Assembly: GCA_946886275.1 (NCBI GenBank)
Contig: CAMPIH010000066.1
Span: 1 to 11,476 of the forward strand
From: an uncultured Sphingosinicella sp.
Lineage (GTDB): Bacteria > Pseudomonadota > Alphaproteobacteria > Sphingomonadales > Sphingomonadaceae
Length of the DNA: 11,476 nucleotides
Direction of reading: 5' to 3'
Positions 6,637-9,543 of this stretch are shown one piece after another (within the stretch, counting starts at the first letter, position 1; the number at the start of each line of letters is the position of its first letter). A program made the position numbers and the translations under genes. The notes beneath the pieces were generated by a model, which had not been told where the DNA came from, did no database searches, and saw only the letters and a list, made by a program, of their open reading frames with translations.

Positions 6637-7635
6637 CTAGTTCTGGCTCAGGCGCTGGTCGACCAGCGCCTTCAGGTCCGCTTCCGGGCGCGCGCCATAA
6701 TGGGAGATGACCTCGGCAGCGGCGATCGCGCCCATTCGAAGGCTCTGCTCGAGCGATCGGCCCTGTGCCTGGCCGGTGAGGAAACCGGCGGCGAACAGAT
6801 CGCCGGCACCGGTCGTATCGACCACCGAAACCGCTTCCGCGCCGGTTTGCGCCCGCTCGTCGCCGCGAACCGCGATCGCCCCTTTCTCGCTTCGAGTCAC
6901 CACCAGCAGCGGGACCCGGTCCCTGACGACGGCCACCGCGCTTTCGAAATGCGCGATTCCCGCGAGCGACTGAATCTCGTCCTCATTGGCGAACAGGATG
7001 TCGATCTTGCCGTCGTCGATGAGCTGGTTGAAGCCATCGCGATGGCGATCGATGCAGAAGCTGTCGGAAAGGGTGAAGGCGACCTTGCGTCCCGCCGACC
7101 GAGCGATTTCGATCGCCCTGATCATCGCGAAGCGCGGCTGCTCGGGGTCCCAGAGATAGCCTTCCAGGTAGAGGATCGCGGAATCGCGAATCTGCTGCTC
7201 GTCGAGAGCGGTGACCGGCAGGTGCTGGGCGGCGCCGAGGAAGGTGCTCATCGTCCGCTGGGCGTCCGGGGTCACGAGCACCAGGCAACGCGCGCTCGGC
7301 ACTCCGAAATCCTTCGGGTCGGTGACGAACTCCACGCCAAGCGAGCTGATGTCGTGGCGGAAGAATTCGCCGAGCTGGTCGGGAGCGACCTGACCGATGA
7401 ACCCGGCGCGGCCGCCCAAAGCGGCGACTCCGGCGGCCGTGTTGGCGGCCGAGCCTCCGCTCGCCTCCCGGCCCGGACCCATGCGCTCGTAAAGTCTCGT
7501 CGCCTCGTCGGCGTCGATCAGTCGCATGGAGCCCTTGGTCAGACCTTCGGCGTCGAGGAAGGCGTCGTCGGCATCTGCGATGACGTCGACGATGGCGTTG
7601 CCGATGGCGAGCACGTCGAGGCGGGGGTCGGTCAT
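6637..7635 (-). CDS. PfkB/ribokinase-family adenosine kinase
   Basis: The 332-residue protein has the ribokinase fold of cytoplasmic sugar and nucleoside kinases. The N-terminal strand DVLAIGNAIVDVIAD (7-21) and GGSAANTAAGVAALGG (60-75) bind the sugar; the second PfkB signature VVDTTGAGDLFAAGFLTG (271-288) provides the anion hole and catalytic base D279. The NEDEIQSL stretch (217-224) is the other family landmark. Alphaproteobacterial proteins of this exact layout are usually annotated as adenosine kinase (adenosine + ATP to AMP + ADP), but ribokinase-family substrate calls from sequence are soft. The ATG at 7633-7635 has a GGAG six bases upstream. The gene is divergent from lnt and starts just outside a structured repeat element. 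A 22-bp perfect palindrome spans the codons just before its stop. Confidence 0.9.
   Translation of the reverse strand: MTDPRLDVLAIGNAIVDVIADADDAFLDAEGLTKGSMRLIDADEATRLYERMGPGREASGGSAANTAAGVAALGGRAGFIGQVAPDQLGEFFRHDISSLGVEFVTDPKDFGVPSARCLVLVTPDAQRTMSTFLGAAQHLPVTALDEQQIRDSAILYLEGYLWDPEQPRFAMIRAIEIARSAGRKVAFTLSDSFCIDRHRDGFNQLIDDGKIDILFANEDEIQSLAGIAHFESAVAVVRDRVPLLVVTRSEKGAIAVRGDERAQTGAEAVSVVDTTGAGDLFAAGFLTGQAQGRSLEQSLRMGAIAAAEVISHYGARPEADLKALVDQRLSQN
6650..6671. repeat. 22-bp perfect palindrome at the 3' end of the adenosine kinase gene
   Basis: Bases 6650-6671 are perfectly self-complementary, centred on GTCGAC (6658-6663). As RNA they would form a nine-pair hairpin with a TCGA loop. It lies within the last codons of the kinase (encoding KALVDQRL), 11 bases before the stop, and 26 bases beyond the stop of the converging proline-rich gene. 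No T-run follows on either strand. It could act as a 3'-end stability hairpin for both converging messages. Confidence 0.6.
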
Positions 7636-7661
7636 TCAGAGCTCCGATTTGGGAAAGCGCC

Positions 7662-7690
7662 CGCTTAGGGCGTGTGTGCTACGCGCACAA
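7662..7690 (-). promoter_or_regulatory. Possible adenosine kinase promoter using the repeat element's end
   Basis: On the minus strand TTGTGC (7685-7690), a 17-base spacer and TAAGCG (7662-7667) resemble a weak sigma70 promoter pointing out of the repeat element towards the kinase start at 7635. The -35 lies wholly inside the element's terminal repeat and the -10 straddles its boundary. Confidence 0.3.
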
Positions 7691-7937
7691 TGGCCGTGAC
7701 GGAGCGTCTTTTGGTGCAGGGCAAGGAGCAAGGAGGGAACGATGCTGACGCATCGTGACCGACGCGCCGACGACGCCCTGCGCCAAAAGCCGCCCGCCGC
7801 TTCGCGGTCGCCTCGCGAAGCCCGCTGGCGGCGTCGGCTTGCTTGCGCGTAGCGAAAGCTACGCGACTGCGCTGCGCTCCTTTCCAGCGGACTTCGCGAG
7901 ACGATCCCGGCCGTTGTGCGCGTAGCACACACGCCCT
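7667..7937. mobile_element. 271-bp MITE/REP-like nested inverted-repeat element
   Basis: The element is bounded by 30-base inverted repeats (7667-7696 and 7908-7937) that agree at 29 of 30 positions. Inside are two hairpin arms. Arm A pairs 7708-7722 with 7775-7789 (14 of 15) and carries an apical hairpin, ACGATGC and GCATCGT around TGAC (7739-7756). Arm B pairs 7812-7828 with 7884-7900 (16 of 17) and carries CGCGTAGC and GCTACGCG around a GAAA loop (7846-7865). The folded strand would be a three-way junction. I see no transposase or convincing gene inside, and no target-site duplication. This fits a non-autonomous miniature transposon or a complex intergenic repeat; what would mobilise it is unknown. 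It fills most of the 417-base gap between the adenosine kinase and lnt genes. Confidence 0.72.
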
Positions 7938-7976
7938 CAGGCGTGTATTCGAGACCCGCAATGGCCGTGACGGGGC
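7938..7976. repeat. Degenerate direct copy of the element's left end
   Basis: Aligned without gaps to 7667-7705, this stretch matches at 29 of 39 positions, including a 15-base identical block, CAATGGCCGTGACGG (7959-7973 and 7688-7702). It lies immediately after the right terminal repeat, so the joint forms a hairpin (ACACGCC 7929-7935 with GGCGTGT 7940-7946). It looks like the remnant of a second, older copy. Confidence 0.55.
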
Positions 7977-7997
7977 AGAGCCCGCCCGCCTCTCCCC
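7972..7997 (+). other. GC-rich hairpin upstream of lnt
   Basis: GGGG-C-AGAG (7972-7980) pairs with CTCT-CCCC (7990-7997), an eight-pair stem with one bulged C and a nine-base loop. No T-run follows. It lies upstream of the likely lnt promoter. The rest of 7998-8052 holds only that promoter candidate. Confidence 0.35.
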
Positions 7998-8052: not shown

Positions 8053-9543
8053 ATGAAATATCTCGGCCTCTCCTTCGTCGCCGGCGTCGCCGGAGCGCTC
8101 GGCTTCGAGCCGGTCGGCTTTTGGCCGATCATGCTCGCCTCGCTGCTCGCCTTGCTGTGGCTGGTCGAGCGGGCGCCGACCCTTCGCTCGGCGCTGGCCC
8201 GCGGCTGGTGGTTCGGCTTCGGCCAGTTCGTCCTCGGCCTCAACTGGATCGCCACCGCCTTCACCTACCAGGCGGCGATGCCGGCCTGGCTCGGTTGGGT
8301 GGCGGTGGTCCTGCTGTCGCTCTACCTCGCCATCTATCCGGCCGCGGCGGCCGGTTTGGCGTGGCGCTGGGGGCGGCGCCATGCGCTCGTCTTCGTGCTC
8401 CTCTTCGCCGCCTCCTGGGTCGTCACCGAATGGCTCCGAGCCACCTTGTTCACCGGCTTCGCCTGGAACCCGGTGGGCGTCGCCCTCATCGACACCGGCC
8501 TGGCCTGGCCGGCACGATGGATCGGCACCTACGGACTGTCGGGCCTCGCCTTGCTGGCCTCGGGCGCGCTGCTGCTTCTGTTTCGCGGGGACCATCGCCG
8601 CGCCGGCGGCGCGACGGCTTCGGCCATTCTGCTTCTCTGCGGAGGCGCGTGGGCGGTCGCGTCCGCCGCTCCGAAGGGCCAGCCAGGAGGCGCGGTCCGG
8701 ATCGTCCAGCCCAATATCGGCCAGCAGAACAAGTGGGATCCCGGCTTTCGGGAAGAGAATTTCCGGCGCCAGCAGCGCCTGACCGGAGCGCCGACGGCGG
8801 AGCCGAGGCTGATCTTGTGGCCCGAGGCCGCGACTCCCGACTTCATCGGCGTCGATCGCCGCGCCCGCCAGAGTTTCGCCGGCCTGATCGGGCCGAACGA
8901 CCTCATCCTGCTCGGCGCGGTCGAGCTCGTGTTCGGACCGGACGGGACTGCCGACGCTGCCTATAACAGCCTCTTCGCGCTCGATTCTCGGGCACGGATC
9001 GTCGGCCGCTACGACAAGGCGCACCTCGTCCCCTATGGCGAATATCTGCCGATGCGGCCTTTGCTTTCGGCGCTCGGGATCAGCCGGCTGGCGCCCGGCG
9101 ACAAGGATTTCCTCAACGGCCCCGGCCCGCGCAACATCGATCTGCCCGGCTTCGGCACCGCCGGAATCCAGATCTGCTACGAGATCATCTTCTCCGGCGA
9201 CGTCGTCAGCGACTCGGATCGTCCGGACTTCATCTTCAACCCGTCCAACGACGCCTGGTTCGGCGCGTGGGGGCCGCCGCAGCATCTCGCCCAGGCGCGG
9301 CTTCGGGCGCTCGAGGAAGGCCTGCCGGTCCTCCGGGCGACTCCGACCGGCATTTCCGCGGTCATCGACGCCCAGGGCCGGCTTCTCCATGCGCTTCCCT
9401 CCGGCGTCGAAGGGGTGATCGACGCCCGGCTGCCGCCGCCGGGTCCGGACACCCTGTTCGCCCGGTTCGGCAATGCGCTACCCTTCCTCTTTGTGCTTCT
9501 GCTCGTCGCCGCGGCTGTTGCGGTCAGACGCAAAACCCGCTAG
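8053..9543 (+). CDS. lnt: Apolipoprotein N-acyltransferase
   Basis: Lnt transfers an acyl chain from phosphatidylethanolamine to the N-terminal cysteine of apolipoproteins, the last step of lipoprotein maturation in the inner membrane. The 496 residues have the usual two parts: about six membrane helices (1-200), then a periplasmic nitrilase-like domain (about 216-470) and a final helix (about 473-492). The Glu-Lys-Cys triad is intact: E258 in LILWPEAATPDF, K322 in YDKAHLVPYGEYLP, and C375 in GIQICYEIIF. NPSNDAWFG and HLAQARLRALEEGLPVLRA, both conserved in Lnt, follow. The ATG at 8053 starts MKYLGLSFVAG with no Shine-Dalgarno sequence. It is followed 75 bases later by metK on the same strand, an order I recall as common in alphaproteobacteria. 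Confidence 0.97.
   Translation: MKYLGLSFVAGVAGALGFEPVGFWPIMLASLLALLWLVERAPTLRSALARGWWFGFGQFVLGLNWIATAFTYQAAMPAWLGWVAVVLLSLYLAIYPAAAAGLAWRWGRRHALVFVLLFAASWVVTEWLRATLFTGFAWNPVGVALIDTGLAWPARWIGTYGLSGLALLASGALLLLFRGDHRRAGGATASAILLLCGGAWAVASAAPKGQPGGAVRIVQPNIGQQNKWDPGFREENFRRQQRLTGAPTAEPRLILWPEAATPDFIGVDRRARQSFAGLIGPNDLILLGAVELVFGPDGTADAAYNSLFALDSRARIVGRYDKAHLVPYGEYLPMRPLLSALGISRLAPGDKDFLNGPGPRNIDLPGFGTAGIQICYEIIFSGDVVSDSDRPDFIFNPSNDAWFGAWGPPQHLAQARLRALEEGLPVLRATPTGISAVIDAQGRLLHALPSGVEGVIDARLPPPGPDTLFARFGNALPFLFVLLLVAAAVAVRRKTR

Follow-up and report, generated by a model that had tools for sequence, protein, structure and literature searches.

A dispersed family of folded, gene-less intergenic elements in sphingomonads, probably IS630-type miniature transposons

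The intergenic stretch at 7667-7937 of the window (the whole DNA stretch analysed here, 11,476 nucleotides from an uncultured Sphingosinicella sp.) is one copy of a scattered sphingomonad family of gene-less DNA. Judging from its ends and target site, it is very probably a non-autonomous IS630-type miniature transposon (MITE) that is moved in trans. A transposase of the IS630 family, supplied from elsewhere, would bind to the 24-bp ends and excise the element, which would then insert at a TA, with CTAG-like sites preferred, and duplicate this TA. The interior is a conserved folded core without signs of coding, in which two branched arms surround a three-way junction, and the outer stem changes in sequence while staying complementary, so that the ends of different lineages match different IS630 types. 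Two features are unusual for a MITE, namely the conserved, elaborate three-way-junction core and the ends, which differ between copies yet are complementary within each copy.

The element between the kinase gene and lnt

The element is flanked by a PfkB-type kinase gene, of which the best relatives are Sphingomonadaceae and Sphingosinicella records, and by lnt. Its parts and neighbours are as follows:

6637..7635, minus strand: PfkB-family (adenosine) kinase, divergent left neighbour (Pfam PF00294)
7666-7667 and 7937-7938: target TA and its degraded copy (TC), under the TA-duplication model
7667..7937, plus strand: whole element, AG...CT, 271 bp (boundaries from 72 copies)
7668-7936, plus strand: element proper under the TA-duplication model (based on one empty site)
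7667..7696, plus strand: outer stem or terminal inverted repeat, left arm (repeat search, fold, copy boundaries)
7708..7789, plus strand: arm 1, predicted 15-bp stem 7708-7722 with 7775-7789 (fold)
7723-7744, plus strand: conserved purine-rich strand of arm 1, AAGGAGCAAGGAGGGAACGATG
about 7741-7756, plus strand: predicted apical hairpin of arm 1 (fold)
7797..7807, plus strand: small junction hairpin CCGC-TTC-GCGG (fold; helix 6, 97.7% of cells paired)
7808..7904, plus strand: arm 2, stem about 7808-7828 with 7884-7904 (repeat search, fold, consensus pairing)
7846-7865, plus strand: apical hairpin of arm 2, CGCGTAGC-GAAA-GCTACGCG
7908..7937, plus strand: outer stem or terminal inverted repeat, right arm (repeat search, fold, copy boundaries)
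8053..9543, plus strand: apolipoprotein N-acyltransferase (lnt), divergent right neighbour (Pfam PF20154, PF00795)

The first-pass annotation had described an outer 30-bp inverted repeat (29/30) around two arms with apical hairpins, and both repeat search and folding reproduce this architecture. A repeat search of the window returns the inverted repeat 7664-7699/7905-7940 (92% over 36 nt), and in the fold the terminal 30 nt of 7667-7937 form an uninterrupted stem (29/30 Watson-Crick plus one G-T), with two hairpin-tipped arms inside. The symmetry is, as had been claimed, far beyond chance: the minimum free energy of the RNA fold of 7667-7937 is -191.7 kcal/mol versus -123.5 +/- 4.9 in 200 shuffles (z = -13.9), none of which reaches the native energy, and a fold of the other strand with DNA parameters (7660-7945) gives z = -12.9. 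The ends originally placed at 7667 and 7937 proved exact, as complementarity in the other copies likewise starts inward from AG...CT; outside these ends, the flanks are no more complementary than re-paired flanks (75 of 76 copies). Inverted repeats flank some copies, and insertion into pre-existing hairpins was considered for these; it was ruled out by this same level of flank complementarity.

In agreement with the first-pass annotation, none of the ten window proteins tested was reported to carry a transposase domain, and open reading frames of at least 30 aa overlapping the window copy are short or extend in from the neighbours. A search of the window against Rfam gave no match at gathering score and five matches below threshold to miRNA and sRNA families, which we take as chance. 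On its right, at about 7939-7980 on the plus strand, the intact copy directly adjoins another family member, of which a truncated left end is present (32 nt at 87.5% identity to that of copy L116, E=9e-7; 7940-7976 is a 78% direct repeat of 7669-7705). Family members have inserted twice, at adjacent positions, in the spacer between the two divergent genes.

Distribution and insertion sites of the family

Copies were collected from a family sample, comprising 298 genomes of the family to which G003 (Sphingosinicella sp. LHD-64, locus L003) belongs, and from a class sample of 385 genomes. In the family sample, 42 of the 298 genomes match at E<=1e-10 and 65 at <=1e-3; in the class sample, 16 of the 385 match at 1e-3 and two at 1e-10, these two being the search centre G003 and G109, which belong to both samples. 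The remaining class matches are short, noise-level pieces. A cut-off of E<=1e-10 was chosen because what matches between 1e-3 and 1e-6 consists of short pieces also present in the class sample, and copy numbers are lower bounds because two candidates were scored per genome in both samples. BLAST of the stretch against the genomes of six relatives gave 5, 13, 5, 1, 0 and 3 matches (the single match is a 41-bp piece), and a focused search of 14 carriers listed between one and 12 matches in each, including self-palindromic ones. The focused search found five distinct places in G003 and six in G161. In G261, 12 places are 94-100% identical over at least 120 bp (some are half copies at contig ends), and this near-identity points to recent spread.

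Two contigs of G003, C4 at its end and C1 at its start (loci L090 and L094), break inside nearly identical copies of the element, and draft genomes may therefore undercount it. In line with the mobile family envisaged in the first-pass annotation, BLASTN against other Sphingomonadales thus finds many dispersed copies with defined ends rather than a lone sequence, and multiple dispersed copies without coding capacity are what characterizes a MITE. A plasmid search returned no match to the element. The literature on repeats, MITEs, IS630 and CIR, covered in part, yielded no paper on the present sphingomonad family among the matches listed.

We extracted 76 copies and removed L165, L182 and L185 for spurious or shifted ends and L099 for a lost arm, which leaves 72; alignment A1, from which L097 was also removed, has 71 rows. 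The remaining loci hold no full copy (contig ends, deletions, weak matches), and a copy present under several locus names was counted once. All copies but L097 (237 bp) are 266-275 bp long (71 of 72), and the copies carry two branched arms within an outer stem of 24-30 bp.

The insertion point is visible at one site with both flanks that is empty in three relatives. Genomes G091, G207 and G156 read CGCTTTAGAGGATC, and the site is filled in G283 (L164) and its ortholog in G248 as CGCTT[TA]GAGC...GCTC[TA]AAGGATC, one base beside the right junction differing from the empty site. This comparison with empty relatives, suggested with the first-pass annotation, places the insertion at a TA. The filled sequence is what TA duplication would leave at this one site, and a model without duplication, with A and T as the element's own ends, gives the identical sequence. 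A second empty site was sought for a copy in G261, with a match in 146 of 149 genomes among the matches listed, and no clean site was found among the 13 examined, which had the right flank but a different left neighbour and were rejected. By eye, the spacer corresponding to that of the window reads GTAG or CTAG at the aligned place in L021 and L003, which lack the element. Also by eye, L001 carries another small palindrome, AGAGCATTTTC...GAAAATGC, at this CTAG position of its lnt-kinase spacer, which suggests a hot spot for IS630-type miniatures.

A preference for CTAG is seen among the junctions of the family. TA is present at 84 of 143 junctions, as CTAG in 43, TTAG in 32 and other NTAN in nine, whereas CTAG occurs 366 times in 80 loci (L001-L080) versus 726 expected, about half. 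The 59 junctions without TA, 45 with an A but no preceding T and 14 with neither, reflect either decay or a rule looser than supposed. TA stands on both sides in only 21 of the 72 copies, which, like the junctions that lack it, we count against the MITE reading; the window copy has TA on the left and TC on the right.

By our rule, none of the 70 scored copies lies inside a predicted open reading frame, the gene calls being approximate as they come from a home-made codon score (the other two of the 72 copies lie at contig edges and were left unscored). Overlaps of up to 94 nt between a predicted frame and one element end occur in several cases, and the predicted frame at L203 spans most of the element, yet every frame has a stop within it. 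An element end overlaps the stop codon of a neighbouring gene in 20 of the 70 copies. Five of these have such an overlap on each side, and the 25 stop codons involved are without exception TAG. As the element starts with G and ends with C, junctions formed by TA duplication in a CTAG-like site restore (C/T)TAG, and TAG stops are spared.

Conserved pairing and concerted change of the arms

The consensus structure of alignment A1 consists of 88 pairs in nine helices. Its partners pair in 95.0% of 6231 cells versus 70.3 +/- 0.3 in shuffles, and in at most 43.5% when they are slid by 1-3 columns; the covariation score is 0.642 versus 0.182 in shuffles, and 80 of the 88 pairs have changed on both sides. 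The sequence of the outer stem varies: all 71 left ends differ, with a mean between-copy identity of 44%, yet the outer arms within a copy are on average 95% complementary (lowest 62%). The core strand around GGAGCGAGGAGGGAGCGATG...CATCGTGACCGACGAGCGACG has a between-copy identity of 77% and many nearly invariant columns, many of which fall in arm 1, and unpaired core columns are also strongly conserved. This conservation exceeds what a transposase needs at the ends, and we count it against the MITE reading.

Several loci depart from the full form. By eye, arm 2 is wholly or mostly missing in the deletion forms L220, L204 and L205, and L217 (about 60 bp) and L337 (about 30 bp) are minimal hairpins that roughly amount to the outer stem with its TA flanks; the L337 hairpin sits at the stop-codon site that a full copy occupies in G261. 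A second, smaller clover-leaf repeat of varying sequence is nested in the arms at L197, L208, L097, L102, L103 and L099, and that of L197 comprises two hairpins closed by GATGAGCAGGT...ACCTGCTCATC (66 nt, -46 kcal/mol). From these deletion, minimal and nested forms it follows that the arms are modules.

How the two sides of the stems change was followed in 14 disjoint pairs of copies that are at least 85% identical. Between them, 53 base pairs changed on both sides (43 are Watson-Crick in both copies) and 65 on one, whereas 8.0 double changes are expected if the sides are independent; for the outer stem, 30 were observed versus 7.3 expected. In the orthologous pair L164/L125 (G283/G248), the outer stem differs by one double and one single change, and three further changes fall at unpaired places. 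Several nearly identical G261 copies have arms that do not match each other, perhaps because the two ends of an L363-type IS630 differ similarly. End-to-end complementarity is 17.5/24 in IS630s versus 22.6/24 in the elements, so that the likeness of the arms seems to be maintained by more than end recognition.

Candidate partners, alternative explanations and meaning

IS630-family elements are described as moving by cut-and-paste into TA, with duplication, in the portion of PMC2170065 available. Candidate partners came from 34 IS630 loci, of which ten have no TA-flanked repeat, four (L346, L347, L349, L352) were set aside for pairing unlike an IS630 end and 20 were used; in another set of 30 loci most have no TA-flanked repeat, and the ends of L296 and L297 (TACCAA...) are of another type and were not used. 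The 20 insertion sequences, from the same bacterial family as the elements, are 1037-1061 bp long with ends that are mostly (C/T)TA|GAG. In the L259 and L257 IS630s the transposase lies in two frames, both pieces of which match the NCBIfam IS630 model, the longer ones above cut-off. A paper on the preference of IS630 for TA within CTAG is cited in PMC2170065, and a title cited in PMC6471742 names a CTAG requirement of IS870.

The 40 IS630 ends have a mean best match to a family end of 17.25/24 versus 13.29 in shuffles, and seven of the 40 match at 20/24 or better, a level reached in none of 500 shuffles. The L363 ends fit G261 copies (20 and 21/24) and L259 fits L189 (21/24). Likeness to the ends of an autonomous IS630 is seen for the GAG-type family ends only. 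The window's GGG-type end matches the 20 IS630s at 13/24 at best, which equals chance; GGG-type ends are the majority (84 of 144), none was found among the 20 IS630s used, and nine loci with lone family-like ends found by pattern hold no IS630 with such ends. We infer that GGG-type copies would be served by the same kind of partner, which may be lost or unsampled, or else their partner may be of another kind. IS630 transposases (PF13358) are found in 11 of 42 carriers and in 78 of the 298 genomes of the family sample, hence no more often in carriers, and give no sign of a resident partner. The dispersed copies, defined ends, empty site and match of GAG-type ends to IS630 together favor the miniature transposon with an enzyme in trans that the first-pass annotation had suggested, and mobilization by IS630 would follow that family's established mechanism.

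The likeness to REP-derived clover-leaf elements that had also been raised did not hold up. A palindrome of REP/BIME type, mobilized as single-stranded DNA by a Y1 transposase (RAYT/HUH) that recognizes the folded hairpin, would account for the strong folding, for pairing that is conserved above sequence and for the TAG beside the hairpin, which recalls the GTAG tag of REPs as described in part of PMC3733652, and Y1 transposases are present in four of eight carriers tested. This explanation is nevertheless highly improbable, as PF01797 has no match in the other four (G003, G247, G155 and G283), the clear repeats at five of seven RAYT loci are by eye of other, unrelated types (ACGGTGACAGT and the like; none were seen at the remaining two), the target is a TA in CTAG-like context and the GAG-type ends match IS630. 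At L170 and L172, RAYT-type tyrosine transposase genes lie amid several other inverted repeats (ACGGTGACAGTTTACT... and GGGGACACAATACT...). A structured RNA or mRNA-end element kept by the host (stabilizer, RNase III site or terminator), now fixed and mobile only secondarily, is less far-fetched but still rather unlikely. It would fit the extreme covariation, the orthologous copies in G283 and G248, which change less than their flanks (6 of 270 sites versus 46 of 600), the mismatch cells of the arm 1 stem (77 G-T versus 9 A-C) and the effects of MITEs of other families on neighbouring transcripts, as reported in parts of PMC2229807 and PMC10969869. Against it stand the patchy presence across genomes, the varied orientation of neighbouring genes (23 divergent, 32 tandem and 15 convergent of 70 copies), the missing Rfam family at gathering score and the mismatches elsewhere: arm 2, with one constant G-T pair set aside, leans to A-C (43 versus 16 G-T), and the outer stem, with 20 G-T versus 35 A-C, has no G-T preference, which argues for a constraint at the DNA level there (copying or DNA folding) rather than RNA. 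Arms 1 and 2 have opposite mismatch biases on the same strand of A1.

A third alternative concerns the change of the arms and is compatible with a MITE: the change would be purely mutational, with template switching in quasi-palindromes copying one arm onto the other and no selection for structure. We regard this as a real possibility that falls short of an even chance. The excess of double changes in the close pairs, the double change at the orthologous site of G283 and G248 and the lower complementarity of IS630 ends all speak for it. The outer arms are, however, about 200 nt apart, which is farther than typical template-switch events, several nearly identical G261 copies have unmatched arms, and mutation alone leaves the strong conservation of unpaired core columns unexplained. 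PMC8604942 and PMC7202029 describe, as far as the available portions go, how template switching homogenizes arms, and we propose that such arm-to-arm copying would be the cause of the concerted change. A fuller version of the IS630-type MITE reading, in which a lineage keeps one folded core and switches between IS630 types through paired end drift by arm copying, the core being selected for folding, excision or RNA, is conceivable, although we consider it doubtful.

Among known systems, the RUP of Streptococcus pneumoniae, for which IS630-Spn1 is the proposed mover, comes closest in mechanism, being gene-less and intergenic with a TA target and ends like those of an IS630 insertion sequence; it differs in its 107 bp and 9-bp repeats from the sphingomonad element, with its about 270 bp, outer stem of 24-30 bp, two branched arms and lineage-diverse ends. 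Correia/NEMIS of Neisseria share terminal repeats of about 24 bp, TA at the termini, target duplication and folding, and are set apart by description as stem-loops of about 107-155 bp without arms in other hosts. The CIR of Caulobacter and Brucella, alphaproteobacterial and intergenic with TA at the termini, come closest in having two long arms; by description they measure about 110 bp, have a conserved GANTC and, unlike the sphingomonad element, no end-to-end stem (all three systems as given in part of PMC2229807). The GANTC hallmark is absent from 59 of the 71 copies, that of the window included. REP/BIME-RAYT systems are likewise palindromic, dispersed and extragenic in the portion of PMC3733652 available, whereas for the sphingomonad element no GTAG tag outside the stem was noted, no linked RAYT was found and the ends and target are of IS630 type. 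The sphingomonad IS630s (L259, L257, L363 and others) share the (C/T)TA|GAG ends, with 24-base ends matching at up to 21/24, but are 1037-1061 bp long and carry a transposase (in two frames in the two examined), and an unsystematic look found no folded core in them.

Non-autonomous elements normally depend on ends that stay constant to suit one transposase. In this family, the ends vary from lineage to lineage, some of them matching different IS630 types, yet the two ends of each copy stay complementary. If arm copying is the cause, it would offer a simple route by which a transposon parasite follows a changing partner. On the more ordinary reading, sphingomonads harbour a mobile repeat family with dozens of copies in which the evolution of long palindromes can be measured, and which also suits the study of how mobile DNA settles on stop codons, at the TA of CTAG, without harm to the gene.
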